From positions 1-41,774 of the forward strand of contig JAFZLD010000024.1 of NCBI GenBank assembly GCA_017553505.1: a stretch of 41,774 nt of DNA. The letters run 5' to 3'. The notes under the pieces were generated by a model. The model had not been told where the DNA came from and searched no databases. It saw only the letters and a program-made list of their open reading frames with translations. The stretch is from Lachnospiraceae bacterium (lineage in GTDB: Bacteria > Bacillota > Clostridia > Lachnospirales > Lachnospiraceae). Positions 12,668 to 34,156 of the stretch are shown here, one piece after another (the first letter of the stretch is position 1; every line of letters begins with the position of its first letter). A program made the position numbers and the translations under genes.

Positions 12668-12706
12668 ACTAAGGAACTAAACGGTCAGTCAACAATCATA
12701 AGCTTT

Positions 12707-13609
12707 TCATTTGGGCCTGCCTGCCAGATATTCCTTTTGATTAAACAATTCACAGATGACCCGAAAAGAGTTATAGACTTCATCGGCGGCCTCGATATCC
12801 CCCATAGCCGCCAATATCTTGTATTTACGCCAAAGAAGAATATGGAGCTGCTTGGAATTGTTCATTTTGCACAAGTATTCTATTCCCTTATTCACATAGA
12901 CAAGTGCCTCCTCCAAATTTCCGTCAGAGAGCAAAAGAACACACAAATTGGATATTACCGAAGGGTAGAACTCAAAGATAAACTTTGTGCTTTGATACAG
13001 CTTTGAACTGAAAGAAAGCAGGCTTTCTATACATTGAATAATATGTTTGTATATAAGGATGGCAAGGCTGTAGTTTTCCTTTTTTATATAATTGAATGCT
13101 ATTCTGTTCAGAAGGCAAAGACCAATATTTGAGTAAACTTTTACCTGAAGAAAAGACTCATGATTGCCCGGATTATCGGGCAATTCGTACCGAAGACCCG
13201 TGATGGCGTAATCGATTGATATATCTGTGTCCTCTTCGCATAAAGATTTCCCGTAATACCAAAGCATCTTGGAATAAAGGCCCATGGAATCAAAAGAATC
13301 CGAATATTTGGATATAAGTTCTTCAATCCTTTTTACATCCTGCAGATCTATGGCATCATTCATTTCGTTGATAAAGGAAAAATCATTGTCGGAATTGGAC
13401 CGCTCGGTCTTTTTGTAGATGGTAAAAAAATCAAGATTGTATTTGCTTGATAAAGAATCGAGCACAAAAAGAGTCGGCTCATTAGTGCCGGATTCAATTC
13501 GTTTATATTGCCTTAACGAGCAGATACCATCGCAAAACCTTTCCTGGGTTTGACAAAGTTCTTTTCTGATAGAACGTAATTTTCTTCCAAAAAGTCCCCA
13601 ATTATCCAT
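12707..13609 (-). CDS. RRNPP-type (Rgg/PlcR-like) HTH-TPR transcription regulator
   Basis: This 300-residue protein has an N-terminal HTH_3 domain (about residues 6-55: FGRKLRSIRKELCQTQERF, then a recognition-helix segment ending RIESGTNEPT). The rest is helical, with TPR-like repeats (about 75-290; 'FYPSVISNLCVLLLSDGNLEEALVYV', 'AAMGDIEAADEVYNSF'). This is the architecture of cytoplasmic receptors for secreted signalling peptides. The start is taken at the third Met (13609) because GGAGGG lies 7 bases upstream. It is divergent from the peptide locus, with shared operator-like palindromes, and is probably its regulator. The peptide-binding role is inferred. Confidence 0.82.
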   Translation of the reverse strand: MDNWGLFGRKLRSIRKELCQTQERFCDGICSLRQYKRIESGTNEPTLFVLDSLSSKYNLDFFTIYKKTERSNSDNDFSFINEMNDAIDLQDVKRIEELISKYSDSFDSMGLYSKMLWYYGKSLCEEDTDISIDYAITGLRYELPDNPGNHESFLQVKVYSNIGLCLLNRIAFNYIKKENYSLAILIYKHIIQCIESLLSFSSKLYQSTKFIFEFYPSVISNLCVLLLSDGNLEEALVYVNKGIEYLCKMNNSKQLHILLWRKYKILAAMGDIEAADEVYNSFRVICELFNQKEYLAGRPK

Positions 13610-13621
13610 AATTAAGCCCTC

Positions 13622-13640
13622 CATCATGTTAATTATACCA
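13622..13640 (-). promoter_or_regulatory. -10 element for the divergent regulator gene
   Basis: Reading the minus strand, TGGTATAATTAAC contains a perfect TATAAT preceded by TGn-like bases, 20-25 bases upstream of the regulator ATG. No good -35 is visible. Confidence 0.5.
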
Positions 13641-13648
13641 CAGTTTGA

Positions 13649-13677
13649 AGTAAAAGTGCCGTAAGTGTCACTTTACT
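13649..13677. promoter_or_regulatory. Inverted repeat, probable regulator operator (site 1)
   Basis: AAAGTG (13653-13658) and CACTTT (13669-13674) form an inverted repeat with a 10-base spacer. It extends outward with AGTAA / TTACT-type bases if one extra A is allowed. It lies between the divergent regulator and the 25-codon ORF, where an RRNPP regulator box would be expected. Confidence 0.5.
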
Positions 13678-13691
13678 GTATCAATAATTTT

Positions 13692-13706
13692 CAAATATCA
13701 TATTTG
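13692..13706. promoter_or_regulatory. 15-bp palindrome upstream of the small peptide (site 2)
   Basis: CAAATAT-C-ATATTTG is a perfect 7+1+7 palindrome ending two bases before the AAGGAGG region of the 25-codon ORF. It could be a second operator or fold in the leader mRNA next to the ribosome site. No convincing sigma-A promoter is visible for this gene, which fits activator dependence. Confidence 0.45.
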
Positions 13707-13723
13707 TATAAGGAGGTGGGCAC

Positions 13724-13801
13724 ATGAAGACAGTTGATATCGATGAAATTATTTCCATAATTGCTCCGTTTTTTGAAGTAGTTGAAACAACAACGAAGTA
13801 A
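13724..13801 (+). CDS. 25-residue peptide, candidate signalling peptide of the RRNPP regulator
   Basis: The ORF encodes 25 residues (starts MKTVDIDEIISIIAPFFEV, ends VETTTK). It has a near-perfect ribosome site (AAGGAGGTGG) 4-10 bases before the ATG. The middle is hydrophobic (IISIIAPFFEVV) and the end polar. It is the first gene after the divergent HTH-TPR regulator, the position where short hydrophobic signal peptides of Rgg/PlcR-type systems are encoded. Unlike classical secreted pheromone precursors, its N-terminus is acidic rather than basic, so export by the Sec route is doubtful and one of the nearby ABC exporters could be used. It could also be a leader ORF. The function is inferred from context. 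Confidence 0.55.
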   Translation: MKTVDIDEIISIIAPFFEVVETTTK

Positions 13802-13860
13802 AAGAAAACAGGTTACAGCGGGGTTGGGTTACATGAATCAGAAGGGAAGGTACGAATCAG

Positions 13861-14856
13861 ATGGGAAACGTATTACCGATGAGAATTCCACCGTCGGAGA
13901 CATATCAATGTATCGCATTCGTCATGGGAATCATGCTCGAAGACGAGAACGTCAAGGAAGCCTTTTATAACCACTACATAAGACTCAGATGCGATAGGTT
14001 TGATGAGAACCAGTTAAGATATGTCGGTTGTGAGGCAGAGGACCTTAGGGTGGAGGGAATTGCGGAACTGAATAAGTATTATATCAAGAATCAATCTCCG
14101 GACAAAATAATCGGTTTTCTGGAAGAAAGACTTGATCAGGGTGATTACCTGTTACTTTTTTGGATTGATGAATACTATCTTCCGTATTCCGAATTCTATA
14201 ATGTAAGACATTTTCATCATGATACACATGTATACGGTTATGATGATGAATGCTTTTATGTTATGGCGTACAGAGATCTTCATCTTCAGAAAATGAAGGT
14301 AAAGAAAGAGCATATAGCCAATAGTCTTGTAGGCGGATTGGCTATAAATCCCGAAGGCGATTTCTGTGCAATAAAGTTTCATGGAATCAAAGTGAAATGC
14401 TCGATAAAGACAATCGCAAGTGAAGTACATGAATACTTAAACGGCGGTTATGACGAGGATACCGGAGCTGACGGAATTGATTCCTATAAGACAATTAAGG
14501 ATATAATGTCGGATTGCACTGAAAATCCGGAAGATGAAATGAGGATAGACCCGAAGCTTCTAAGAATGCTTTGGGAGCACAAAAAAATATTTTCGCTCAG
14601 AAATCAATTTTTAAGTGAAAAAATAGAGGGGTTAAAAGCATTACAAAAGGATGTTGACGATTTGGTGAGGGATACATCCATGATGATGCTTATGGCACTT
14701 AAATTCAATAAAAATCAAGATATAAGTATTCCTGAACGCATAAAGGAATATGCCGATGATTTATATGAACGAGAAGAGCGATATTTACGGGAGTTTTTGG
14801 CTGTTATAAGCGAATACGAGGTATCGCAGGGTGATAAATCAGATTACAAAGATTGA
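13861..14856 (+). CDS. BtrH-like acyltransferase / cysteine-peptidase-fold protein of peptide cluster
   Basis: This 331-residue protein resembles the BtrH N-terminal domain. There is an early Cys (C17 in ETYQCIAFVMG), then about residues 95-130 carry 'LLLFWIDEYYLPYSEFY' and 'HHDTHVYGYDDE' (H123 and D128), the pattern used by BtrH-type proteins and papain-like relatives. In butirosin synthesis BtrH moves an acyl group from an acyl carrier protein to an amine. The C-terminal half is helical and unassigned. The ATG at 13861 has a GGGAAGG region 10 bases upstream; ATG 13879 is an alternative. It is the first large gene of the peptide operon and shares it with an ACP-like gene. The activity is inferred; a peptidase role is possible. 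Confidence 0.6.
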   Translation: MGNVLPMRIPPSETYQCIAFVMGIMLEDENVKEAFYNHYIRLRCDRFDENQLRYVGCEAEDLRVEGIAELNKYYIKNQSPDKIIGFLEERLDQGDYLLLFWIDEYYLPYSEFYNVRHFHHDTHVYGYDDECFYVMAYRDLHLQKMKVKKEHIANSLVGGLAINPEGDFCAIKFHGIKVKCSIKTIASEVHEYLNGGYDEDTGADGIDSYKTIKDIMSDCTENPEDEMRIDPKLLRMLWEHKKIFSLRNQFLSEKIEGLKALQKDVDDLVRDTSMMMLMALKFNKNQDISIPERIKEYADDLYEREERYLREFLAVISEYEVSQGDKSDYKD

Positions 14857-15406
14857 TGAAAAAACATACTTGATTGAATCGGATATGACGATTAATGAAG
14901 ACATATTCATTACCGACAAAGAGACACTGATAATTCGGGGAAGTGACACCAAGGTATATATCGGGACAGAGAAAAAAGTAACGATACGTATCGACGGAGC
15001 TTTGGATAATCACGGAAGATTGATGTTAATTAACTGCACGATGCATTTGGGTGGGTATGCGTTCAGAAATTACGGAGTACTGATGATTACCAACCGTTCA
15101 AAGTTTGTAATGGGATATAGAGTCAAGCCACGAATGCTGAACGCAGGAATGATATACATTAAAGACAATGCCGAATTTAAGCACGACGGTGAGAGCGAGG
15201 AAACCGAACTTGAAAATGCCGGAATGATACAGGTGGCTGATGGCGGGAGATTGTTTTTGAGTCAAAAAAGAAGCAGTACCGTACATAATTCGGGAGTAAT
15301 GCGTTTGTCGGATGAGAAGAATTTCATGCTTGAAAACGCCGAGGACTTTCGAAATGACGGGATTGTAAAAATTAGTAATGAAAACGGGGGAACGGAGGGT
15401 GAATAA
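14831..15406 (+). CDS. Beta-solenoid-like repeat protein, unknown function
   Basis: I do not recognise a named family for this 191-residue protein. From about residue 50 it shows repeated 'N-x-G-x-hydrophobic' turns about 20-28 residues apart (NHGRLMLIN, RNYGVLMITN, LNAGMIYIKD, LENAGMIQVAD, VHNSGVMRLSD, FRNDGIVKIS), which suggests a small right-handed beta-solenoid. There is no signal peptide or membrane helix, so it is probably cytoplasmic. The start is a GTG with GAGGT 8 bases upstream, overlapping the previous gene by 26 bases; ATG 14885 is an alternative. Its place between the BtrH-like gene and the ABC exporter makes it a likely part of the maturation machinery, perhaps a scaffold. Confidence 0.6.
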   Translation: MINQITKIDEKTYLIESDMTINEDIFITDKETLIIRGSDTKVYIGTEKKVTIRIDGALDNHGRLMLINCTMHLGGYAFRNYGVLMITNRSKFVMGYRVKPRMLNAGMIYIKDNAEFKHDGESEETELENAGMIQVADGGRLFLSQKRSSTVHNSGVMRLSDEKNFMLENAEDFRNDGIVKISNENGGTEGE

Positions 15407-17168
15407 GAAAAGCATACAATTCGGATACAAGCACTTTATCAAGCCTGTAGGCATAAAGAATATTTACATACCGGCGGTGGGATTGCTTGGTTCGATTGCG
15501 GGAATAATAAATATCTACTTTCCCGGCGCGATTATAAACAGGTTGTATCCAAACTCTGAGGTTCGTGCGGCAGCAATATTGGTAACGGTATTCTGCGTAT
15601 CGACATTAGCCGTTTCGTCACTTAATACCTTTTTCATGAGAAAAATGGACTATGAAAGCTTGAAGGTTACGACGTCCGTAAAGAAGCAATTGGTAAGTAG
15701 GCAACTAAGCCTGAACCTTCTTACGATGGAGTCGCCGGAATATGCAGATGACTTTAGCTTCGGCTCCAAATGCCTGGATCGGAATTTCTATTCTGTCATA
15801 TCAGGCGTAATAATTTCCGTCATATCGCTTGTTCTTTTACTTATCGGCAGCGTGACAATTATCAGGGAAAAGAAAATAGTTTGTCTGTATATTGTTGGGA
15901 GCTTGTTACTTCTTCCCGCGTCATACGTGGCGCAGAACATGATCAATAAAAACAAGTACAGCGAACAGGTCGCCGATAACAGCGAAAGAAGAGAGATGGA
16001 AACGCTTCAGTGGAACATGTTGGATTTGCAGTATGGACAGGAAGTAAGAGCTTTCGGACTTAGGAAATTCCTTGCGGGCAAGTACAACTATTGCAGAAAC
16101 TATGTGTACGATGCGATGAAAGTTTGCTGTAAAAAGAACGCTGTCTGGGCAATTATTCCGGCGGTAATATTCGGAACTCAGCTGATAGCGGCGTACTTGC
16201 TTACCATGAACCAATATACGCGAGGCGAGATAGAAGTAGGCGATTTCGTGATGTACGTAGCGGCCTTTACGGGAGTTGCCAATGCTATCATGCAAATCGC
16301 AGATGAAGCGGTGCGAATAAAGGCGGAAGGCAGATACTTCGGAGCACTGCAAAAGTGTTTTACATATGATACTGAATCCGAAGGTGAGCGCCTTGAGCGG
16401 CAGACCGGGGAACTTTCTTTTAAAACCCTTGAGTTTAAAGATGTTTCTTTTTCCTATGGCGGTGACGACACGTATGCTCTCAAAAACATAAACCTAAAAA
16501 TACATGAAGGGGAGCGAATCGCCATAGTAGGAGAAAACGGCTCGGGTAAGACTACCTTTATAAAACTGCTAACGGGTCTGTATAAACCGACAAAGGGAGC
16601 GGTTTTGATAAATGGTAAAGATATATCTCTGTTTGGCAAGGATGAGATATCAAGGCTTATTTCGCCGGTATTTCAAGACTATGCGCTGACCTACTACACA
16701 ATCAGAGAGAACATTGCTTTTGCGGATGAGATTGATGAAGAAAGAATGGAAGCAGTGTTAAAGGAAGTAGGACTTGATCAAAAGATAGAAACCCTTAACA
16801 AGGGAATAGATACACATGTATTTTACAAGTTAGACAACGAGGGTACAGAGATGTCGGGAGGAGAGCTGCAGAAAGTTGCTATCGCGAGAGCGCTTTATAA
16901 GGACTCACCGATACTTATCCTTGATGAGCCGACGGCGGCACTTTCGCCTAAGGCCGAGAGAGAACTCTATCACCGCATATGGGAGTTTAAAGACCAAAGA
17001 ACAATATTCCTTATTTCACACAGATTATCCAGTTGTGTGGAGGCTGAGAAGATTGTGGTTCTTAAAGACGGTGAGATAACAGAACTTGGTACGCATGCTG
17101 AACTTACTGAAGCGAAAGGCTATTACAATTCGCTGTTCAGTGCGCAGGCAAAAAACTATAAAGATTAA
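15378..17168 (+). CDS. ABC exporter (fused membrane and ATPase domains), peptide cluster copy 1
   Basis: This 596-residue half-transporter has about six N-terminal helices (about residues 25-320) and a C-terminal ATPase with Walker A GENGSGKTT (from 385), signature MSGGELQ (from 492), Walker B LILDEP (D516, E517) and the H-loop ISHRLS. It would work as a homodimer, or as a heterodimer with the second exporter of the cluster. There is no C39 peptidase domain, so leader removal must be done by another protein. The ATG at 15378 lacks a ribosome site; GTG 15399, after GGGGGAACGGAGG, is an equally likely start. It overlaps the preceding gene. It probably exports the peptide product or the small signal peptide. 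Confidence 0.88.
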   Translation: MKTGERRVNKKSIQFGYKHFIKPVGIKNIYIPAVGLLGSIAGIINIYFPGAIINRLYPNSEVRAAAILVTVFCVSTLAVSSLNTFFMRKMDYESLKVTTSVKKQLVSRQLSLNLLTMESPEYADDFSFGSKCLDRNFYSVISGVIISVISLVLLLIGSVTIIREKKIVCLYIVGSLLLLPASYVAQNMINKNKYSEQVADNSERREMETLQWNMLDLQYGQEVRAFGLRKFLAGKYNYCRNYVYDAMKVCCKKNAVWAIIPAVIFGTQLIAAYLLTMNQYTRGEIEVGDFVMYVAAFTGVANAIMQIADEAVRIKAEGRYFGALQKCFTYDTESEGERLERQTGELSFKTLEFKDVSFSYGGDDTYALKNINLKIHEGERIAIVGENGSGKTTFIKLLTGLYKPTKGAVLINGKDISLFGKDEISRLISPVFQDYALTYYTIRENIAFADEIDEERMEAVLKEVGLDQKIETLNKGIDTHVFYKLDNEGTEMSGGELQKVAIARALYKDSPILILDEPTAALSPKAERELYHRIWEFKDQRTIFLISHRLSSCVEAEKIVVLKDGEITELGTHAELTEAKGYYNSLFSAQAKNYKD

Positions 17169-17187
17169 AATAGGAAGGACGAGAAAA

Positions 17188-18537
17188 ATGGGCAGAAGGT
17201 TTCAAGCGTCAATGTTTAACGTAGTGGTTGACGAACAGGAAAATGGAATGTATCTTTACAACTCTTACAAGGGGTTGGACAGCATCAAGGAGGTAGCTCC
17301 CGCGGCAAGAGAAAAGGTAAAAGACTACCTTAGCGGAAGAAAGGTGGATGAGAGCGACGATCCCATTCTTAATGAGCTTATCGAGAACAGATTTATGGTA
17401 CCGGAACTCTATGACGAGCGTGCAGACAGAGAGCAGTTATTCTACGAGTATACGATGGAAGATACTCTTGACATTACGGTTCATACGACAGATGCCTGCA
17501 ACTTCAGATGCAAGTATTGCGCACTTGATTTTAAGACAAATGTAATAAGTAAAGATGTTCAGGACAGAATAATTAAACTGATTGCAAGAAATGTCAACAA
17601 GTATAGCAGAGTTCATATCGATTGGTTTGGAGGAGAACCCCTTATTGGAATCGATGCCATCGAATACATTTCCGAGAAGGTTATTGATATCTGCAGAAAG
17701 GCAAAAAAACCCTATACAGGTTCAATTACAACCAACGGATATCTTCTTACCAAAGAAAACGTTGAGAAGCTTATTAAGAGCAGAGTGGCCAACTACACCA
17801 TAACTGTCGACGGCTTAAAAGAGACTCATGATAATCAGCGAATTTATATGGACGGCGGCCCTACGTGGGACAGAATCATAGGTAATCTGGAAGGTATTCG
17901 CGACAATGTCAAAAACAGATATATCTCGGTTGTAATAAGAGGCAATTTCACCAAGGAGATGCTTAAGGACCTTCCTGAATTTTACAATCTCTTAAATGAC
18001 AAATTCGGAAAAGATCCCAGATTTTCTTTCTTTGTACGTCCGGCAGGAGACTGGGGTGGAGAAAGAGTTAAGCTCATAGCGGATCATCTGATGCCTTACA
18101 GTCAAATGGCAGAAGTGTATAACTATCTGGCAGAGAATCAGAAGGATCTTAAATGCATCATAAACCTTTATAACATTCATACATGCGGTGCAATGTGCAG
18201 AAGTAATAAGAAAAACAGATATGTTATTACTTCCTACGGAAAAGTACAGAAATGCGAAACCTGCAGACCGGAGCATGAAATCGGAGAAATCTCCAAGGAT
18301 GGGCGTCTGGATACGGATAAACATCTTGAAGCGGTATGGACGGTAGGTTTCAGACGAAACAAAAGAGAACAGTGTGATGAATGTCCGCTCAGTTGCTCAT
18401 GCTTGTGGGGTAACTGTCCGAAAATCGGTGTGTTAAATCCCAAAGACAAAAACTGCGGATACATAACCGAATATAAGGAGTTAATTAAACTGGCGGCTAA
18501 GACATATGATGTAGAAACTTTAGGAGCGGAGGCGTAG
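17188..18537 (+). CDS. Radical SAM/SPASM peptide maturase (CcpM-like)
   Basis: This 449-residue enzyme has an N-terminal domain (about 1-90) suited to leader binding, a radical SAM barrel with CNFRCKYC (C104, C108, C111) for the 4Fe-4S/SAM cluster, then 'DWFGGEPL' and 'SITTNGYLL'. The C-terminal SPASM-type region holds Cys 333, 337, 356, 359, 396, 399, 403, 405, 410 and 423 for auxiliary clusters. It probably forms thioether or other C-linked cross-links in the Cys-rich precursors encoded just downstream. The ATG at 17188 follows AGGAAGGA and is preferred to an in-frame ATG at 17086 inside the exporter gene. The combination with an ACP-like gene recalls the clostridial CcpM family (TIGR04068, from memory). 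Confidence 0.9.
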   Translation: MGRRFQASMFNVVVDEQENGMYLYNSYKGLDSIKEVAPAAREKVKDYLSGRKVDESDDPILNELIENRFMVPELYDERADREQLFYEYTMEDTLDITVHTTDACNFRCKYCALDFKTNVISKDVQDRIIKLIARNVNKYSRVHIDWFGGEPLIGIDAIEYISEKVIDICRKAKKPYTGSITTNGYLLTKENVEKLIKSRVANYTITVDGLKETHDNQRIYMDGGPTWDRIIGNLEGIRDNVKNRYISVVIRGNFTKEMLKDLPEFYNLLNDKFGKDPRFSFFVRPAGDWGGERVKLIADHLMPYSQMAEVYNYLAENQKDLKCIINLYNIHTCGAMCRSNKKNRYVITSYGKVQKCETCRPEHEIGEISKDGRLDTDKHLEAVWTVGFRRNKREQCDECPLSCSCLWGNCPKIGVLNPKDKNCGYITEYKELIKLAAKTYDVETLGAEA

Positions 18538-18539
18538 AA

Positions 18540-18800
18540 ATGGGAATAACAGAAAGTGTAAAAAATGCTTTGGATACAGTGGGATGTTTTGTACCGGAAG
18601 GAAATGAGGATTTTGATTTAAGAGAGTATTTGTTTGACTCGTTAACGTTTGTTTCTTTCATGATTGAAATTGAAAATTTACTGGGGATAAGTCTTCCCGA
18701 TGAGGTGCTGAATTTCGAATTGCTGGCTTCATTTAACGGATTTGTGGAACTCATTGGTGAGTATACCAAGGAGAAGCAGGCGCTTGAGGTAACGGTTTAG
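18540..18800 (+). CDS. Acyl-carrier-like protein of the peptide cluster
   Basis: This 86-residue acidic helical protein has the carrier motif 'FDSLTFVSFMIEIE' with Ser34 in the Asp-Ser-Leu position for a 4'-phosphopantetheine arm, followed by 'LGISLPDEVL', the usual helix II-III pattern of acyl carrier proteins. It starts 2 bases after the radical SAM gene with GGAGCGGAGG upstream. It resembles the 'peptide maturation system acyl carrier-related' family (TIGR04069, from memory). The intact Ser suggests it is truly loaded with an acyl or aminoacyl group, possibly handed on by the BtrH-like protein. No dedicated adenylation enzyme is visible in the locus. Confidence 0.85.
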   Translation: MGITESVKNALDTVGCFVPEGNEDFDLREYLFDSLTFVSFMIEIENLLGISLPDEVLNFELLASFNGFVELIGEYTKEKQALEVTV

Positions 18801-18822
18801 TTATCGATTGGGTGCAAGAATA
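18801..18822 (+). repeat. Left arm of inverted repeat flanking the precursor genes
   Basis: This 22-base segment begins right after the ACP-like stop codon. Its reverse complement recurs at 19228-19249 with 18 of 22 matches, including the uninterrupted 11-base core TGGGTGCAAGA. Confidence 0.8.
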
Positions 18823-18860
18823 TGATTAAAACAAATTCCAAAATATAAAGGAGAAACAAT

Positions 18861-19010
18861 ATGAAGAAGACTTTAGTTAAACCTGTTGAAAAGAAAGAAA
18901 TGGCTACAAAGGTTGAATTACAGAGAAAAGTTACAGGTGACGAATGCACAATTAACCAGACCAACTGTGTAGTTGGATGCGCTTGCTCAGGTACTGTTGA
19001 CGTAATGTAA
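18861..19010 (+). CDS. Cys-rich RiPP precursor peptide 1 (49 aa)
   Basis: The peptide has a leader (MKKTLVKPVEKKEMATKVEL then QRKVTGDE) and a C-terminal core from about residue 29: CTINQTNCVVGCACSGTVDVM, in two blocks CTINQTNC and VVGCACSGTVDVM. Its Cys are at 29, 36, 40 and 42 (C-x6-C-x3-C-x-C). AAGGAGAAA lies upstream of the ATG. It is 42/49 identical to precursor 2; six of the seven differences are in the core. The size, lysine-rich leader, Cys-rich tail and position beside a radical SAM/SPASM maturase and an ACP-like gene fit the Clo7bot type of Cys-rich peptide. It is below normal gene-calling length and easy to miss. The modification is inferred. Confidence 0.88.
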   Translation: MKKTLVKPVEKKEMATKVELQRKVTGDECTINQTNCVVGCACSGTVDVM

Positions 19011-19051
19011 TATTTTTGTTTCTTAATTCCAAAATATAAAGGAGAAATAAT

Positions 19052-19201
19052 ATGAAGAAGACTTTAGTTAAACCCGTTGAAAAGAAAGAAATGGCTACAA
19101 AGGTTGAATTACAGAGAAGAGTTACAGGTGACGAATGTACAGTTAATCAGGGTAACTGTGTAGTTGGATGCTCTTGCTCGGCTACTGTTGACATTCTTTA
19201 A
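19052..19201 (+). CDS. Cys-rich RiPP precursor peptide 2 (49 aa)
   Basis: This is a tandem copy of precursor 1, start to start 191 bases, with the same upstream block (AATTCCAAAATATAAAGGAG). The leader differs only at residue 23 (K to R). The core differs at residues 31 (I/V), 34 (T/G), 41 (A/S), 44 (G/A), 48 (V/I) and 49 (M/L). The Cys at 29, 36, 40 and 42, and the VVGC and TVD motifs, are kept. The pattern (fixed leader, changing core, mostly conservative changes, Cys kept) shows recent duplication under selection for the modifying enzyme. The two products may act as a pair, as in two-peptide bacteriocins, or be simple variants. Confidence 0.88.
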   Translation: MKKTLVKPVEKKEMATKVELQRRVTGDECTVNQGNCVVGCSCSATVDIL

Positions 19202-19227
19202 TTTTTTAGTTAGTCAAAAATAATATT

Positions 19228-19249
19228 TAGTCTTGCACCCATATGATAA
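19228..19249 (+). repeat. Right arm of inverted repeat flanking the precursor genes
   Basis: Reverse complement of 18801-18822 with 18/22 matches and core TCTTGCACCCA. It lies 26 bases after the precursor 2 stop codon. In RNA the two arms could pair and enclose the ~400-base precursor segment; in DNA they look like cassette ends. No transposase is nearby. Confidence 0.75.
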
Positions 19250-19263
19250 ATGATTTGTGTTTC

Positions 19264-19286
19264 GGCAGAGCCGTAAGGGCTCTGCC
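19264..19286 (+). terminator. Stem-loop between precursors and protease gene (attenuator or processing site)
   Basis: Perfect 9-bp stem GGCAGAGCC / GGCTCTGCC with loop GTAAG, not followed by a T run. It lies between the highly expressed-looking precursor genes and the ribosome site of the protease gene at 19312. A partial terminator or mRNA end-protecting structure would give more precursor than enzyme. Confidence 0.55.
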
Positions 19287-19311
19287 GGTCGCAAACAAAG
19301 GGGATAGTAAT

Positions 19312-21123
19312 ATGAAAATGGCAATTATAGATACCGGTGTATCCAAAGAAATGACGGAAAGATATCCGGATATCGACGGAGTGGCAGTAAGACTGTCAGA
19401 AGAAAAAGTAATAATAGATTCTGATTTTGAAGATGAAATCGGTCATGGGACATCAATAGTGGGAATAGTCAAATCCCATGTGCCTGATTTGAAAATATAC
19501 GCTGTAAAGGTCAATGTCGGTAAAGACGAAGCAGGTCATTGTGAATCAATGATTGAGGCGCTTAAGTATGTAAACAGAGAGATTAAGCCTGACATTATTA
19601 ACCTCAGTATGAGCGTCTGCGATACAGAGAAGCTGGAAGAATTGTACGAAGTATGTGCGGATATTTATAAAAATGGCACGGTACTTGTTGCTGCATTTGA
19701 TAATGAAGGTGCAATAGCATACCCGGCTGCTTTTGACTGCGTAGTAGGTGTAACATCGGCAGATGCCATTACCAAAAACAACAGTTACATGCGCGTAAAC
19801 AGCAGATTCATAAATGCGTGCGCCAAGGGAAGGGCTCAGAGGGTTACCGAACTCAATAACGAGATTATGATAAGACTGGGCGACAGTCTGGCTTGCGCGC
19901 ATTTTTCGGGAATGTTGGCGCAAAAAATGAAATCAGACAATATCTCGTCGCGTAAAGCTCTTGAGGAAATGGGTATTGATATCGGTTGCCCCTCCGGAAA
20001 GTTCCACGAAGAATATGAGGCTCCGATTGATTTCGTTACGGGAGGGAAGGCGGTGTTGTTTCCTTACAATAAGGAGATGCACAGTTTGGTACGTTTCTAT
20101 GATCTTCTGGATTTTGAAATTGCGGGAATATTTGATGTAAGAAGATCGGGGAAAGTCGGGATGAGTCTTAAGCTTCAGAAGGGTGAAGAGATAATTCCGA
20201 TAACGGTTGGTAAAGTCGAGTCTATGAGTGAAACGGAATATGACATGCTCATAGTGGGACATACTGATGAATTGGCATACACAGATACGTCTTTGGATGT
20301 GTCGGAAATAATCAGGGAAAACTTACGTGCGGGTAAGAAGGTATATTCTTTTGACGATTTTGCTGATGAGGAAATCACAGAGTATAAGAAGCGTGGAATG
20401 TTTTTTTCTCCGCAGATACACATAGATACCGACAGAATTGCGCCGTTTGGCAAGCTTTTCAGAACGAGAGTGCCGGTTATCGGTGTGTTCGGCACCCGCA
20501 GTAAACAGGGAAAATGGACATTACAACTGGAACTCAGAAGACGATTCTTAAAGGACGGTTATAATCTGGGAGAGCTTGGTACAGAGCCCACGGCGTACCT
20601 TTTCGGAATGGATTCCTGCTATCATTTCGGTTATAACTCAATAAAGAAATATGATAATTACGAGAGAATAGCGCATATCAACGGTATCATCCACGACATG
20701 ACGATTAAAAAGAAAGACATAATTCTCGCAGGATCGCAGTCGCAGACGTTAAGCAATAATGCCGGCAATATTTCGGGATATGCAATAGACCAGTATATAT
20801 TCATGCAGGCGCTTCAGCCCGATGCAGTTATTCTTTCGGTACGTTATGAAGACAAACCCGAATATATAAAATCCACCATACAGTTTATGGAAGCCGCCGT
20901 ATCCTGCAAGGTTCTTTCTCTTGTTATTTTCCCCAACAAGGAAAAATGGGGCAATGATAAGGATCTAAAAATCAGCGAGGAAGAACTGAAAGAATACAAG
21001 AAAAAAGTTCAAAAATGCCTTGGCAGGGAAATAGAGGTTTACCGTCTGGAACAGGAAAGCGATTTGGATAAAGTATATGACGGAATAATAGATTTTTTTG
21101 CCGCAAATGAAGATGCGATGTAA
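19312..21123 (+). CDS. Subtilisin-like protease fused to peptide-maturation domain
   Basis: This 603-residue two-part protein starts with a compact S8 domain (about 1-225) carrying D7 (IDTGV), H45 (GHGTS), N131 for the oxyanion hole and S192 in GDSLACAHFSG, so the catalytic set is complete. There is no signal peptide, so it acts inside the cell, probably cutting the precursor leader. Residues about 245-603 ('AVLFPYNKEMHSLVRFYDLL') resemble the TIGR04066 peptide-maturation family (from memory). They contain a P-loop-like GTRSKQGKWT (394-403), like the DUF1611 C-terminal domain. The ATG at 19312 follows AAAGGGGA; an upstream ATG at 19243 would run through the hairpin. Confidence 0.82.
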   Translation: MKMAIIDTGVSKEMTERYPDIDGVAVRLSEEKVIIDSDFEDEIGHGTSIVGIVKSHVPDLKIYAVKVNVGKDEAGHCESMIEALKYVNREIKPDIINLSMSVCDTEKLEELYEVCADIYKNGTVLVAAFDNEGAIAYPAAFDCVVGVTSADAITKNNSYMRVNSRFINACAKGRAQRVTELNNEIMIRLGDSLACAHFSGMLAQKMKSDNISSRKALEEMGIDIGCPSGKFHEEYEAPIDFVTGGKAVLFPYNKEMHSLVRFYDLLDFEIAGIFDVRRSGKVGMSLKLQKGEEIIPITVGKVESMSETEYDMLIVGHTDELAYTDTSLDVSEIIRENLRAGKKVYSFDDFADEEITEYKKRGMFFSPQIHIDTDRIAPFGKLFRTRVPVIGVFGTRSKQGKWTLQLELRRRFLKDGYNLGELGTEPTAYLFGMDSCYHFGYNSIKKYDNYERIAHINGIIHDMTIKKKDIILAGSQSQTLSNNAGNISGYAIDQYIFMQALQPDAVILSVRYEDKPEYIKSTIQFMEAAVSCKVLSLVIFPNKEKWGNDKDLKISEEELKEYKKKVQKCLGREIEVYRLEQESDLDKVYDGIIDFFAANEDAM

Positions 21124-21141
21124 TCGTTACAAGGAGTTTAC

Positions 21142-22923
21142 ATGAGAAAAATATGGCTGTTTATCAAAAGAATATGCTACCTTATCGGATTGTGTGCCAA
21201 AGAGTCGCCGAAGATGATTCTTATTGACGGTTTTTTTGGAATTGTGGTGGCGATGCAGTCGTTATTGTATATCATTATTCCCAAATTAATCTTGGATGCG
21301 CTTATATATGATAAGGATGGGATGAGAGCAATTCTTCTTATTGTCGCGCTTGGCGTGGGAGAGGCAATTGCCGAGCATGTTCTTGCCTTTATTTCGGACC
21401 TGGCCGGAGTGTACAATGAGAAGGTGGCGCACGACTTGCTTTTGCGGCTTTCGGAAAAAGCAACAAGAGTTAATTACGGAGCAATGAGAAGGCATGAAGT
21501 TATCGATAAGTACCAGCAGGCACAGAATGCCACTTTCGGTTTGGAGAACAAGGTGGCGGTTCTGCTTTGTGACTTCTTTTCAAATATCGTAAAGTTCGTG
21601 ACGATTTTTGCCGTAGTTTCAACTGTAAGCGGGTGGATGGCTCTTATTATTGTAGTACTTGTTTTTGCAAAGATGTTTGTGATGGACAGAGCCAATGATA
21701 AAGATATGGCTTTAAGGATAAGGGACAACAGCGAGAATGTACATTACGGATATGTTACCGAACTTTGCCAGAAACTCACCTTTGCCAAAGAAGTAAGAAC
21801 ATACAATTTAAAGCCTTTTGTCCTGAATAAATTTGAAAATTCGAAAAACAGGAAGCTTGAAATTGCCAAAGAACGTATACGCGTGGGCGGCATTTCCGCA
21901 GTGCTTGAAAGCTTTATGGATATGCTGATGTTGGCGGCCGCTTATGTAATGATAATTGTGAGATATATAAAGGGTGCGGTGAGCATTTCGATATTCTCGG
22001 TGTATCTTACCGCTGTATCCGAGGCGTATCATACCATTTCGGAGATTATGAGAGTCGGCGTTCTTTTGCGAGACACAAACAGACAGGTAGAGCAGTATAT
22101 TGAATTTATGGATTTCCCGGAACAGACGAGCTTAAAGCAATCGGATGGTTCTGTGGGAGTGGTCGATAAGCCTTTGGTCGTTGAATTTAGAAATGTTTCC
22201 TTTAAGTATCCGGGAACAGACAATTATGTGTTGAAAAACGTAAGCGTTAAGTTCAGCCCCGGTTCCAAAATCGGAATAGTGGGAGAAAACGGCGCAGGAA
22301 AGTCTACCTTTATCAATTTGCTCCTACGCTTTTATGACGTGGAAGAAGGAGAGATTCTTTTAAACGGGAAGAATATCAAAGAAATTGATTATGACGAGTA
22401 TATGAAGCTTTTCTCAATCGTACCGCAGAATTATGCGTTGTTCTTCTTTGATATATACGAGAACATTGCCTTTGACAGGAAAGATGACAAGCGTTGTGAC
22501 AGTGCACTTAATAAGGTCGGAATGCTTGAAAAGGTCGAAGGGCTTACTTGGAAAAAGAACACCTTTATGTCAAAGTGGTTTGCAAAGGGATGCGATTTCT
22601 CGGGAGGCGAGAAGCAACGGTTTGCCATAGCAAGAAGTTTCTTTAACGAAGCACCGATAATGATAATGGATGAGCCCAATGCTGCGATAGATCCTCTTGC
22701 AGAAAAAAAGATTAATGATTCGATTAAAGCCATAGGAAGAGATAAACTTGTAATCAGCATTTCACACAGGCTTTCGATGACCAAGGACTGCGATATGATT
22801 CTGGTATTCGAAGACGGTGAAATAAAGGAAAAAGGAACCCATGCGGAATTGATAGAATTGGGCGGGGTGTATCGGGAGGCTTTCTATACTCAGGCGCGCC
22901 ACTACATATCTGAGGCGGTTTAA
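21142..22923 (+). CDS. ABC exporter (fused membrane and ATPase domains), peptide cluster copy 2
   Basis: This 593-residue half-transporter has N-terminal helices (about 25-320) and an ATPase with Walker A GENGAGKST (from 381), signature FSGGEKQ (487-492), Walker B IMIMDEP (D510, E511) and ISHRLS. AAGGAG precedes the ATG, 18 bases after the protease gene. It is clearly paralogous in layout to the exporter at 15378 but diverged ('DEPNAAID' here against 'DEPTAALS' there). The two may form a heterodimer or export different cargo. No peptidase domain is present, consistent with the separate cytoplasmic S8 protease. Confidence 0.88.
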   Translation: MRKIWLFIKRICYLIGLCAKESPKMILIDGFFGIVVAMQSLLYIIIPKLILDALIYDKDGMRAILLIVALGVGEAIAEHVLAFISDLAGVYNEKVAHDLLLRLSEKATRVNYGAMRRHEVIDKYQQAQNATFGLENKVAVLLCDFFSNIVKFVTIFAVVSTVSGWMALIIVVLVFAKMFVMDRANDKDMALRIRDNSENVHYGYVTELCQKLTFAKEVRTYNLKPFVLNKFENSKNRKLEIAKERIRVGGISAVLESFMDMLMLAAAYVMIIVRYIKGAVSISIFSVYLTAVSEAYHTISEIMRVGVLLRDTNRQVEQYIEFMDFPEQTSLKQSDGSVGVVDKPLVVEFRNVSFKYPGTDNYVLKNVSVKFSPGSKIGIVGENGAGKSTFINLLLRFYDVEEGEILLNGKNIKEIDYDEYMKLFSIVPQNYALFFFDIYENIAFDRKDDKRCDSALNKVGMLEKVEGLTWKKNTFMSKWFAKGCDFSGGEKQRFAIARSFFNEAPIMIMDEPNAAIDPLAEKKINDSIKAIGRDKLVISISHRLSMTKDCDMILVFEDGEIKEKGTHAELIELGGVYREAFYTQARHYISEAV

Positions 22924-22943
22924 ATATAGCATCAGCCCAAGGA

Positions 22944-23030
22944 ATGACATTCGGAATAATCGGACTTATAGGAGGGGTAAAGGCTTTACAGAGAGTATAC
23001 CTCATAGGCTCCAAAGCTACAAAAGAGTAA
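22944..23030 (+). other. Short ORF or gene remnant (28 codons) at the end of the peptide locus
   Basis: An open frame encodes 28 residues (MTFGIIGLIGGVKALQRV, then YLIGSKATKE) and continues upstream in frame to 22924. It looks like the hydrophobic tail of a lost membrane protein. AAGGA abuts the ATG with no spacing, so independent translation is doubtful. It may mark a junction where the island was joined to the backbone. Confidence 0.25.
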
Positions 23031-23040
23031 GAGTTTTTTG

Positions 23041-34020: not shown

Positions 34021-34038
34021 TATTAACTGTAAACAATA

Positions 34039-34156
34039 ATCTTCGGGGTTGGGTGCAATTCCCTACCGGCGGTATAGTCCGCGACCCGTGCTTGCACGGC
34101 TGATTCGGTGAGATTCCGAAACCGACGGTACAGTCCGGATGAAAGAAGAGAGCGTT
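34039..34156 (+). ncRNA. FMN riboswitch (RFN element)
   Basis: The conserved blocks of the FMN aptamer are present in order: CTTCGGGGTTGGGTG near 34041, AATTCCCTACCGGCGGTA, AGTCCGCGACCCG, a variable hairpin (GTGCTTGCACG), TGATTCGGTGAGATTCCGA, ACCGACGGTACAGTCCGGAT and GAAAGAAGAGAGC. It binds flavin mononucleotide in the leader of ribU. A terminator hairpin follows, so FMN probably stops transcription of the riboflavin uptake gene. Confidence 0.97.

Follow-up and report, generated by a model that had tools for sequence, protein, structure and literature searches.

A Lachnospiraceae peptide locus that keeps a serine-bearing acyl carrier protein beside a protease–TIGR04066 fusion

Two described gene clusters carry the classical TIGR04066/TIGR04068 gene set (PMC4573289, PMC10731318). 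SacP23 from Paenibacillus polymyxa #23 is antimicrobial, with a measured mass of 3404 against a predicted 4455 and a structure reported as unsolved (PMC10731318). Its cluster encodes a CcpM-type (TIGR04068) radical S-adenosylmethionine (SAM) maturase, a TIGR04066 protein, an acyl carrier protein (ACP)-related protein, a subtilisin-like protease, an ATP-binding cassette (ABC) transporter and a Cys-rich precursor whose leader is rich in Lys and Arg; there, separate genes encode the protease and TIGR04066, and the gene table of the paper holds no BtrH-like gene. The five-gene cluster of Roseburia intestinalis L1-82 combines TIGR04068, TIGR04066, TIGR04069, a separate S8 subtilase and an ABC protein, with no precursor recognised and no mention of a BtrH-like protein in the passage on it (PMC4573289). 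Here we analyse a locus of the same broad kind at positions 12707–22923 of a Lachnospiraceae contig (JAFZLD010000024.1, assembly GCA_017553505.1; its full 41,774 nucleotides are called the window). Positions are those of the window, and genes lie on the forward strand unless stated otherwise. A first-pass annotation had read the locus from the sequence as one for a ribosomally synthesized and post-translationally modified peptide (RiPP), of the Clo7bot/CcpM type with unusual extra parts; all the genes it listed were confirmed as open frames. Like the SacP23 cluster, the locus holds a radical SAM maturase, TIGR04066, ACP-related, subtilisin-like and ABC functions and Cys-rich precursors with Lys-rich leaders. 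The S8 protease that it shares with the CcpM system is, however, fused to TIGR04066.

The main new result, at the level of sequence, is that the carrier protein of this fused sub-class keeps its serine, whereas the carrier-like proteins of classical TIGR04066 systems mostly lack it. The window ACP (18540–18800) passes PF00550 (PP-binding) at 24.5 bits against a cut-off of 20.8 and has the Ser attachment site, Ser34, in an Asp-Ser-Leu motif. The same position is Ser in 53 of 53 clustered relatives of the fused sub-class, and in a wider profile set it is Ser in 62/62 carriers above 20 bits and 58/58 above 30 bits; the 62 include the weak matches of L133 and L134 (21 bits) and an opposite-strand one in L084 (28 bits), possibly a housekeeping ACP (L numbers label the loci compared). 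By contrast, only 1 of the 14 distinct carrier-related proteins from classical TIGR04066 neighbourhoods has Ser in that column (53/0 versus 1/13; Fisher p ~6e-13, uncorrected for relatedness). The set of 14 excludes L195, a short stretch without a TIGR04066 match, and L200–L205, which have no TIGR04066 neighbour and whose six general-ACP-like proteins all have Ser. L185, fetched as a TIGR04066 locus, was also left out, its neighbourhood being that of a nonribosomal peptide synthetase (NRPS) without radical SAM or carrier profile matches; its stand-alone TIGR04066/DUF1611-like gene (L185 8771–16915) lies near a 1917-residue NRPS with Condensation, AMP-binding and PP-binding domains. TIGR04069, the carrier-related family of the CcpM system, did not match the window at E 0.01, and matched 2 of 11 scanned sequences, one of the 11 being a wrong open reading frame (ORF; L020:11439). 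In the classical loci L186–L189, from the same bacterial family, TIGR04066 is a stand-alone gene, S8-type genes are separate (L186, L187, L188), the precursors have denser Cys runs, and the stretches examined gave no sign of a BtrH-like gene. The short classical stretches L196–L198 gave very weak BtrH-profile matches of 7–9 bits.

The gene set recurs well beyond the window. A pattern scan of 84,980 species genomes gave 127 relatives, of which the best 80 were kept, corresponding to 78 loci; nine S8-only or weak loci (L147–L155) were dropped and the window, L020, L021 and L073 were added, which made 73, while seven earlier copies (L014–L019, L072) were left out as duplicates. Near-identical loci were retained (L135/L138/L145 and L133/L134). 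The relatives are mostly Clostridia, with Paenibacillus, Sutcliffiella and metagenome-assembled genomes labelled Latescibacterota, Gemmatimonadetes and Spirochaetales. Of the 73 loci, 69 have a fusion match above 200 bits, with profiles seeded partly from the same loci, and 33 of the 69 (counting the window) are flanked by 7 kb or more in each direction. These 33 full-context loci contain an ACP in 32, an ABC gene in 31 (two or more in 27), a BtrH-like gene in 26, a long radical SAM gene in 25 and a long or second radical SAM gene in 29; a BtrH-like or transglutaminase-like gene occurs in 27, and Agr-type families in 8. Because the same set surrounds homologues in other genomes, it is not a chance assembly, and the carrier, fusion, BtrH-like protein and exporters are, judged by their recurrence, a common core, whereas the long radical SAM enzyme is commonly present but can be replaced. 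The parts first called unusual are therefore mostly core: recurrence rules out the BtrH-like protein, the fusion and the exporters as local oddities, and only the 191-residue protein and the regulator described below are local. Single relatives also carry possible tailoring genes, a formyltransferase and a methyltransferase (L016 6194–6907; L072 9954–10631).

Of 348 genomes from the same family (its own included), 12 hold a match to the radical SAM enzyme at E 1e-40 and 10 hold the 11 fusion matches at E <=1e-40; within the genus, the fusion occurs in 2/18 genomes, at 34% identity. BtrH-like genes make up 76 rows in 38/348 genomes and lie within 10 kb of 9/11 fusions. Such neighbours were used to seed the profile, which makes its sensitivity non-independent, although the gene positions remain independent.

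The radical SAM/SPASM-type peptide maturase (17188–18537; PF04055, E 2.9e-19) is, by curated score, a member of no named maturase family. It has 15 cysteines, three in the CX3CX2C motif and 12 others (11 after residue 300), a count that replaces the "3+10" of the first-pass annotation; CX3CX2C and C337, C356, C396, C399, C405 and C410 are invariant among nine aligned sequences. The nearest NCBIfam model, TIGR04463, gave 189.7 bits against a cut-off of 525, followed by NF038107 (143.5 against 600), the Clo7bot model TIGR04334 (134.9 against 600), the ranthipeptide maturase PapB (NF047865; 104.5 against 340) and the CcpM model TIGR04068 (90.2 against 500). These scores exclude membership in Clo7bot, CcpM, TIGR04463 or PapB, and with it the type originally assigned. 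Seven curated maturase families match 9/9 scanned radical SAM sequences at E 1e-20, window included. Hidden Markov model searches thus hit maturation families, below their cut-offs, and the neighbourhood comparison found the gene set conserved, so that on both of the points where the first-pass annotation had exposed itself to refutation, a RiPP locus of the broad radical SAM/TIGR04066/carrier-protein/Cys-peptide kind is upheld. Anti-phage defence was considered and rejected, as PADLOC, run on five proteins, matched them only to radical SAM/viperin and subtilase models of a general kind.

Two precursor peptides of 49 residues with four Cys each (18861–19010 and 19052–19201) follow the carrier gene and are recognised by position, ribosome-binding site (RBS), Lys-rich start and the near-identity of the two copies, which differ in 11 codons. 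Residues 1–28 differ solely at residue 23 (K/R), and the remaining six amino-acid changes all fall downstream of the first Cys, the pattern expected for two products of one machinery. Across relatives, short ORFs among the locus genes have in common that they begin Lys-rich, carry a VxLY-like motif and end in a tail with Cys. Leader-like peptides account for 53/122 same-strand candidate ORFs with an RBS, in 43/72 loci with anchor genes, against 0/489 on the opposite strand under the same filter; without the RBS filter, the opposite strand gives 5/684 intergenic and 46/6847 of all ORFs. A few of the 53 seem spurious (for example, L107 at 9069), and no precursor was recognised in L114. With many precursors in relatives only 24–36 residues long, the mature products can only be very small. 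A similar leader is found in classical systems (MKKLIKRSDVMQETLEAYC in L188, for example). The probable product of the cluster is a small peptide cross-linked at cysteine.

Downstream, an S8 protease (residues 1–~220) is fused to a domain of the TIGR04066/DUF1611 fold (~245–600) in one gene, 19312–21123. The fusion matches TIGR04066 over positions 2–359 of 361 at 109 bits (cut-off 200), and its S8 half matches QhpE (NF049966) at 106 bits (cut-off 165); both models match all 56 fusion sequences. The protease triad looks intact, with H45 and S192 in 56/56 and D7 in 54/56, the other two being gaps. The predicted fold of the TIGR04066 half matches the DUF1611/DgcN structures 2g0t and 2obn, and NCBIfam DgcN is matched by 1/56 fusion sequences (E 8.8e-7). 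DgcN is an N-acyltransferase, and the QhpE protease also follows a radical SAM enzyme.

The BtrH-like gene (13861–14856) encodes a protein with Cys17 and His120 that just passes BtrH_N (PF14399; 30.4 bits against 29.7), over residues 76–134 only; in its profile set (A5), 9/38 members match PF14399 at E 0.01. The predicted structure matches CcbD, an AziU2–U3 complex chain and CtaG over nearly the full length, giving a CcbD-type fold, and the catalytic His column is kept in 52/54 BtrH-like sequences. AziU3 and CtaG use carrier-bound substrates. CcbD forms amides from carrier-tethered acyl groups (PMC12945683). Searched by sequence, the BtrH-like profile matched nothing in the Protein Data Bank (PDB) at E 1, and when A5 was aligned by profile to three canonical BtrH proteins, the alignment spanned the His region only and did not reach the Cys.

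Three further observations point to carrier-dependent acyl chemistry. First, among 12 inspected BtrH-like loci that lie apart from fusions, 7 carry an ACP no more than 1 kb away, and 6 of these 7 have a PF01648 phosphopantetheinyl transferase (PPTase) on the opposite side; these 12 loci (13 genes) were hand-picked and non-random, mostly the higher-scoring of 67 other rows. Second, in the genome of the window carrier and BtrH-like domains share single proteins: on contig 14, a 952-residue protein joins an AMP-binding (A-) domain, a carrier and BtrH_N (L220 14324–17182), and a 2802-residue NRPS (L219 2297–10705) shows, beyond its last carrier domain, a BtrH-like match (E 7.3e-38) at its C-terminal end. 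Third, a transglutaminase-like protein in 11 fusion loci has Cys, His and Asp in 11/11 (three representatives scanned), making it a possible catalytic partner of the carrier. The loci in question are L084, L085, L089, L092, L093, L096, L099, L124, L128, L141 and L143. The genome also gave two PPTase matches. As side observations, the three-gene ACP/BtrH-like/PPTase cassette of Lachnospiraceae (L175–L178, L182, L183) has a BtrH-like protein with a TSWQWHA motif and no papain-position Cys, a 2304-residue neighbour in L176 gave no Pfam match, and the 952-residue protein adjoins an asparagine-synthase-like protein.

The retention of a working-looking ACP with a matching partner of amide-forming type, unlike in the described relatives, suggests from sequence that the peptide may receive an acyl cap. 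In the proposed pathway, the radical SAM enzyme would first cross-link the Cys-bearing C-terminal part of both 49-residue precursors, probably by thioether bonds, as its family relationships imply. The S8 half, with its intact triad, would then cut off the Lys-rich leader and expose a new N-terminal amine. The carrier, presumably made holo by a host PPTase, would present an acyl group, which the BtrH-like protein would join to the amine, perhaps helped by the DUF1611-like half; this capping step is the new point. One or both ABC proteins would export the product, which by analogy with SacP23 might be antimicrobial. An operon for RiPP biosynthesis and export that performs all of cross-linking, leader removal, acyl capping and export falls, in our judgement, just short of an even chance. 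We propose more tentatively, and with clear doubt, that it represents a distinct RiPP class, in which a live ACP and a CcbD-like, mostly Cys-less partner acyl-cap very small radical-cross-linked peptides, and in which the protease that cleaves the leader, being fused to a DgcN-like N-acyltransferase domain, would couple the two steps (cleave-and-cap).

Several findings weigh against acylation. At the papain Cys position, the BtrH-like family has Cys in only 2/54 sequences, one of them the window, with His in 10, Trp in 7, a gap in 4 and other residues in the rest; in a set of 41 the window alone has Cys, and its Cys17, whose putative placement at the CcbD Cys position rests on the first turn of helix 16–27 of the model, is Gly in the three closest copies. 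A CcbD-like covalent mechanism is thus impossible for most of the family, whose members would act without a covalent intermediate or may not be enzymes. Nor do the neighbours include any recurrent family for acyl activation or loading. In six of the 33 full-context loci neither a BtrH-like gene (>30 bits) nor a transglutaminase-like gene is present, although for L100, one of the six, there is a weak BtrH-like match of 24 bits (E 7.7e-14 with a larger profile). The assignment to DUF1611 is mainly at fold level: PF07755 gave 19.8 bits on the fusion (E 5.6e-4; cut-off 25), and its search in 20 relatives gave nothing at E 1e-10. Both window peptides fail the leader motif filter, with VELQ in place of VxLY, so that the window precursors are a divergent case. 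Carrier and radical SAM enzyme are not cleanly separable: no convincing set of loci was found that keeps the carrier core without radical chemistry. The related idea that loci lacking a radical SAM enzyme have Cys-free peptides was withdrawn after a re-check and is not used here, since only L131 fits it (a Cys-free leader-like ORF and no ORF of at least 150 residues with CX3CX2C). L119 has a Cys-free leader-like ORF and lacks the usual radical SAM families, yet a 524-residue CX3CX2C ORF (16295–17869) lies directly after its ABC genes, and its longer copy, L072, has a Radical_SAM protein upstream. What the first-pass annotation called acyl transfer has evidence on either side: the carrier Ser, the CcbD-like fold and the ACP/BtrH-like/PPTase cassettes favour it, whereas the unconserved catalytic Cys and the missing acyl-loading family do not. 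We hold acylation below an even chance because of the unconserved Cys, the absence of a recurrent acyl-loading family and the loss of the Cys-free argument, and for these reasons we keep a docking complex as its main rival.

In such a complex, the ACP-shaped protein and a papain-like (C39-like) domain that is mostly Cys-less would bind the leader, or the peptide once cross-linked, and pass it to the fused protease and the ABC exporter. The rarity of the catalytic Cys and the absence of a recurrent loading enzyme speak for docking, and BtrH_N is described as close to C39 and C70 peptidases (PMC10318531). With Ser missing from 13/14 classical carriers, the family already has an ACP-like role that does without phosphopantetheine. 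A docking role does not, however, account for Ser in 62/62 carriers, for the ACP/BtrH-like/PPTase cassettes or for the intact transglutaminase-type triads in 11 loci, and we consider it a serious rival that is, on its own, unlikely. Less probable still is a standard sactipeptide or ranthipeptide cluster of the CcpM/SacP23 type, with a product that is thioether-bridged only and no special role for the carrier and the BtrH-like protein. The kinds of gene match those of the SacP23 and Roseburia intestinalis clusters and the leader style is alike (KxLxK), but the radical SAM enzyme scores far under the TIGR04068 and TIGR04334 cut-offs, and the classical loci L186–L189 differ in their separate TIGR04066 gene, mostly Ser-less carrier and, in the stretches examined, lack of a detected BtrH-like gene.

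A signal or cofactor-like peptide under peptide quorum control, through a divergent helix-turn-helix–tetratricopeptide repeat (HTH–TPR) regulator and a 25-residue ORF, is the least probable alternative: Agr-type families lie near 13/69 relatives (names from one representative each), and elsewhere in the genome HTH–TPR-type regulators adjoin short secreted-looking ORFs, but the RNPP_C match of the window regulator falls short of significance (E 0.063; 13.2 bits, cut-off 26.5), the 25-residue ORF shows no clear signal sequence (its relatives were sought only within the loci), and SacP23 is antimicrobial. The regulator (12707–13627, reverse strand) has HTH_3 at 19.2 bits (cut-off 23), TPR below cut-off and an RstR-type match of 22.3 bits (cut-off 80), with weak paralogues elsewhere in the genome. 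The first-pass claim of quorum-type control thus goes further than the window supports, and quorum control of the operon is possible. The 25-residue ORF (13724–13801; MKTVDIDEIISIIAPFFEVVETTTK), which that annotation did not list, lies upstream of the BtrH-like gene behind a strong RBS (aaggaggt) and is a possible signal peptide or leader ORF.

The remaining genes fill out the operon. A locus-specific 191-residue protein, perhaps a beta-solenoid (14831–15406), has a sub-threshold Hyphal_reg_CWP match (20.5 bits; cut-off 28); neither it nor the regulator was matched in the other loci searched. ABC exporter 1 (15378–17168; ABC_tran, E 1.2e-34) lies upstream of the maturase, and ABC exporter 2 (21142–22923; ABC_tran, E 6.5e-30; ABC_membrane, E 7e-8) closes the locus. 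Genes were called with a simple in-house script and starts weighed with our own RBS score: the radical SAM ORF was listed from 17086, where RBS and relatives favour ATG 17188; the RBS of the S8 fusion fits ATG 19312 rather than 19243; the listed start of exporter 1 has no RBS and is uncertain; and that of the BtrH-like gene has a weak one. A perfect 9-bp hairpin without a T run, read from the sequence, separates the precursors from the protease (19264–19286) and is not among the predicted terminators. Promoter and terminator counts showed no excess over shuffles, and the divergent promoter held only short, unremarkable inverted repeats.

The locus has a GC content of 40.6%, against 46.5% and 47.6% in its flanks, and lies between a methyl-accepting chemotaxis gene and tex, both named by Pfam. 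A sister genome with a 99% identical Tex holds at the same site a different cassette of ~9.3 kb with YcaO, nitroreductase, ABC, GHKL sensor and LytTR genes (L216 4349–13657; window site 12668–23031), so the site looks like one of peptide-cassette exchange. Elsewhere in the window, a flavin mononucleotide (FMN) riboswitch scores above gathering at 34035–34154. On contig 22 of the same genome, a peptide-like locus (L169 5562–14919) has three radical SAM matches, an 87-residue protein, a 38-residue peptide, two ABC transporters, an HTH–TPR-type regulator and a weak BtrH-like match (E 9e-7). On contig 14, a radical SAM/SPASM protein with a PqqD domain, an ABC ATPase and a Gly/Ala-rich 70-residue peptide with two Cys form a possible RiPP locus (L172 6120–12600).

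Finally, the preferred reading, acyl capping of a cross-linked peptide, can be set against known systems part by part. The BtrH-like protein sits with a carrier protein, as CcbD (celesticetin), AziU3 (azinomycin), CtaG (closthioamide) and BtrH (butirosin) do, and shares the full-length fold and the His position with CcbD, CtaG and AziU2–U3; it differs in that its family mostly lacks the catalytic Cys and that its partner is a ribosomal peptide system. The S8 half is like QhpE, here fused and below the curated cut-off, and the TIGR04066 half has its fold in common with DUF1611/DgcN, here joined to a subtilisin and below the Pfam cut-off. Goadvionin-type acyl-RiPPs, in which a carrier-bound acyl group is joined to a RiPP, offer a precedent for the capping step, with another peptide class and another type of acyltransferase. 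Among the matches listed in the open PMC literature we recognised no description of the fused, carrier-live sub-class. Acylation, if borne out, would make many clusters, in gut Clostridia, Paenibacillus and further afield, potential producers of acylated, cross-linked mini-peptides. The puzzle of an ACP-like gene in such peptide clusters becomes directly testable, as the TIGR04066 peptide systems split in two: those with a mostly Ser-less carrier-like protein, and those, like the present locus, with an invariant Ser and a partner of amide-forming-type fold.

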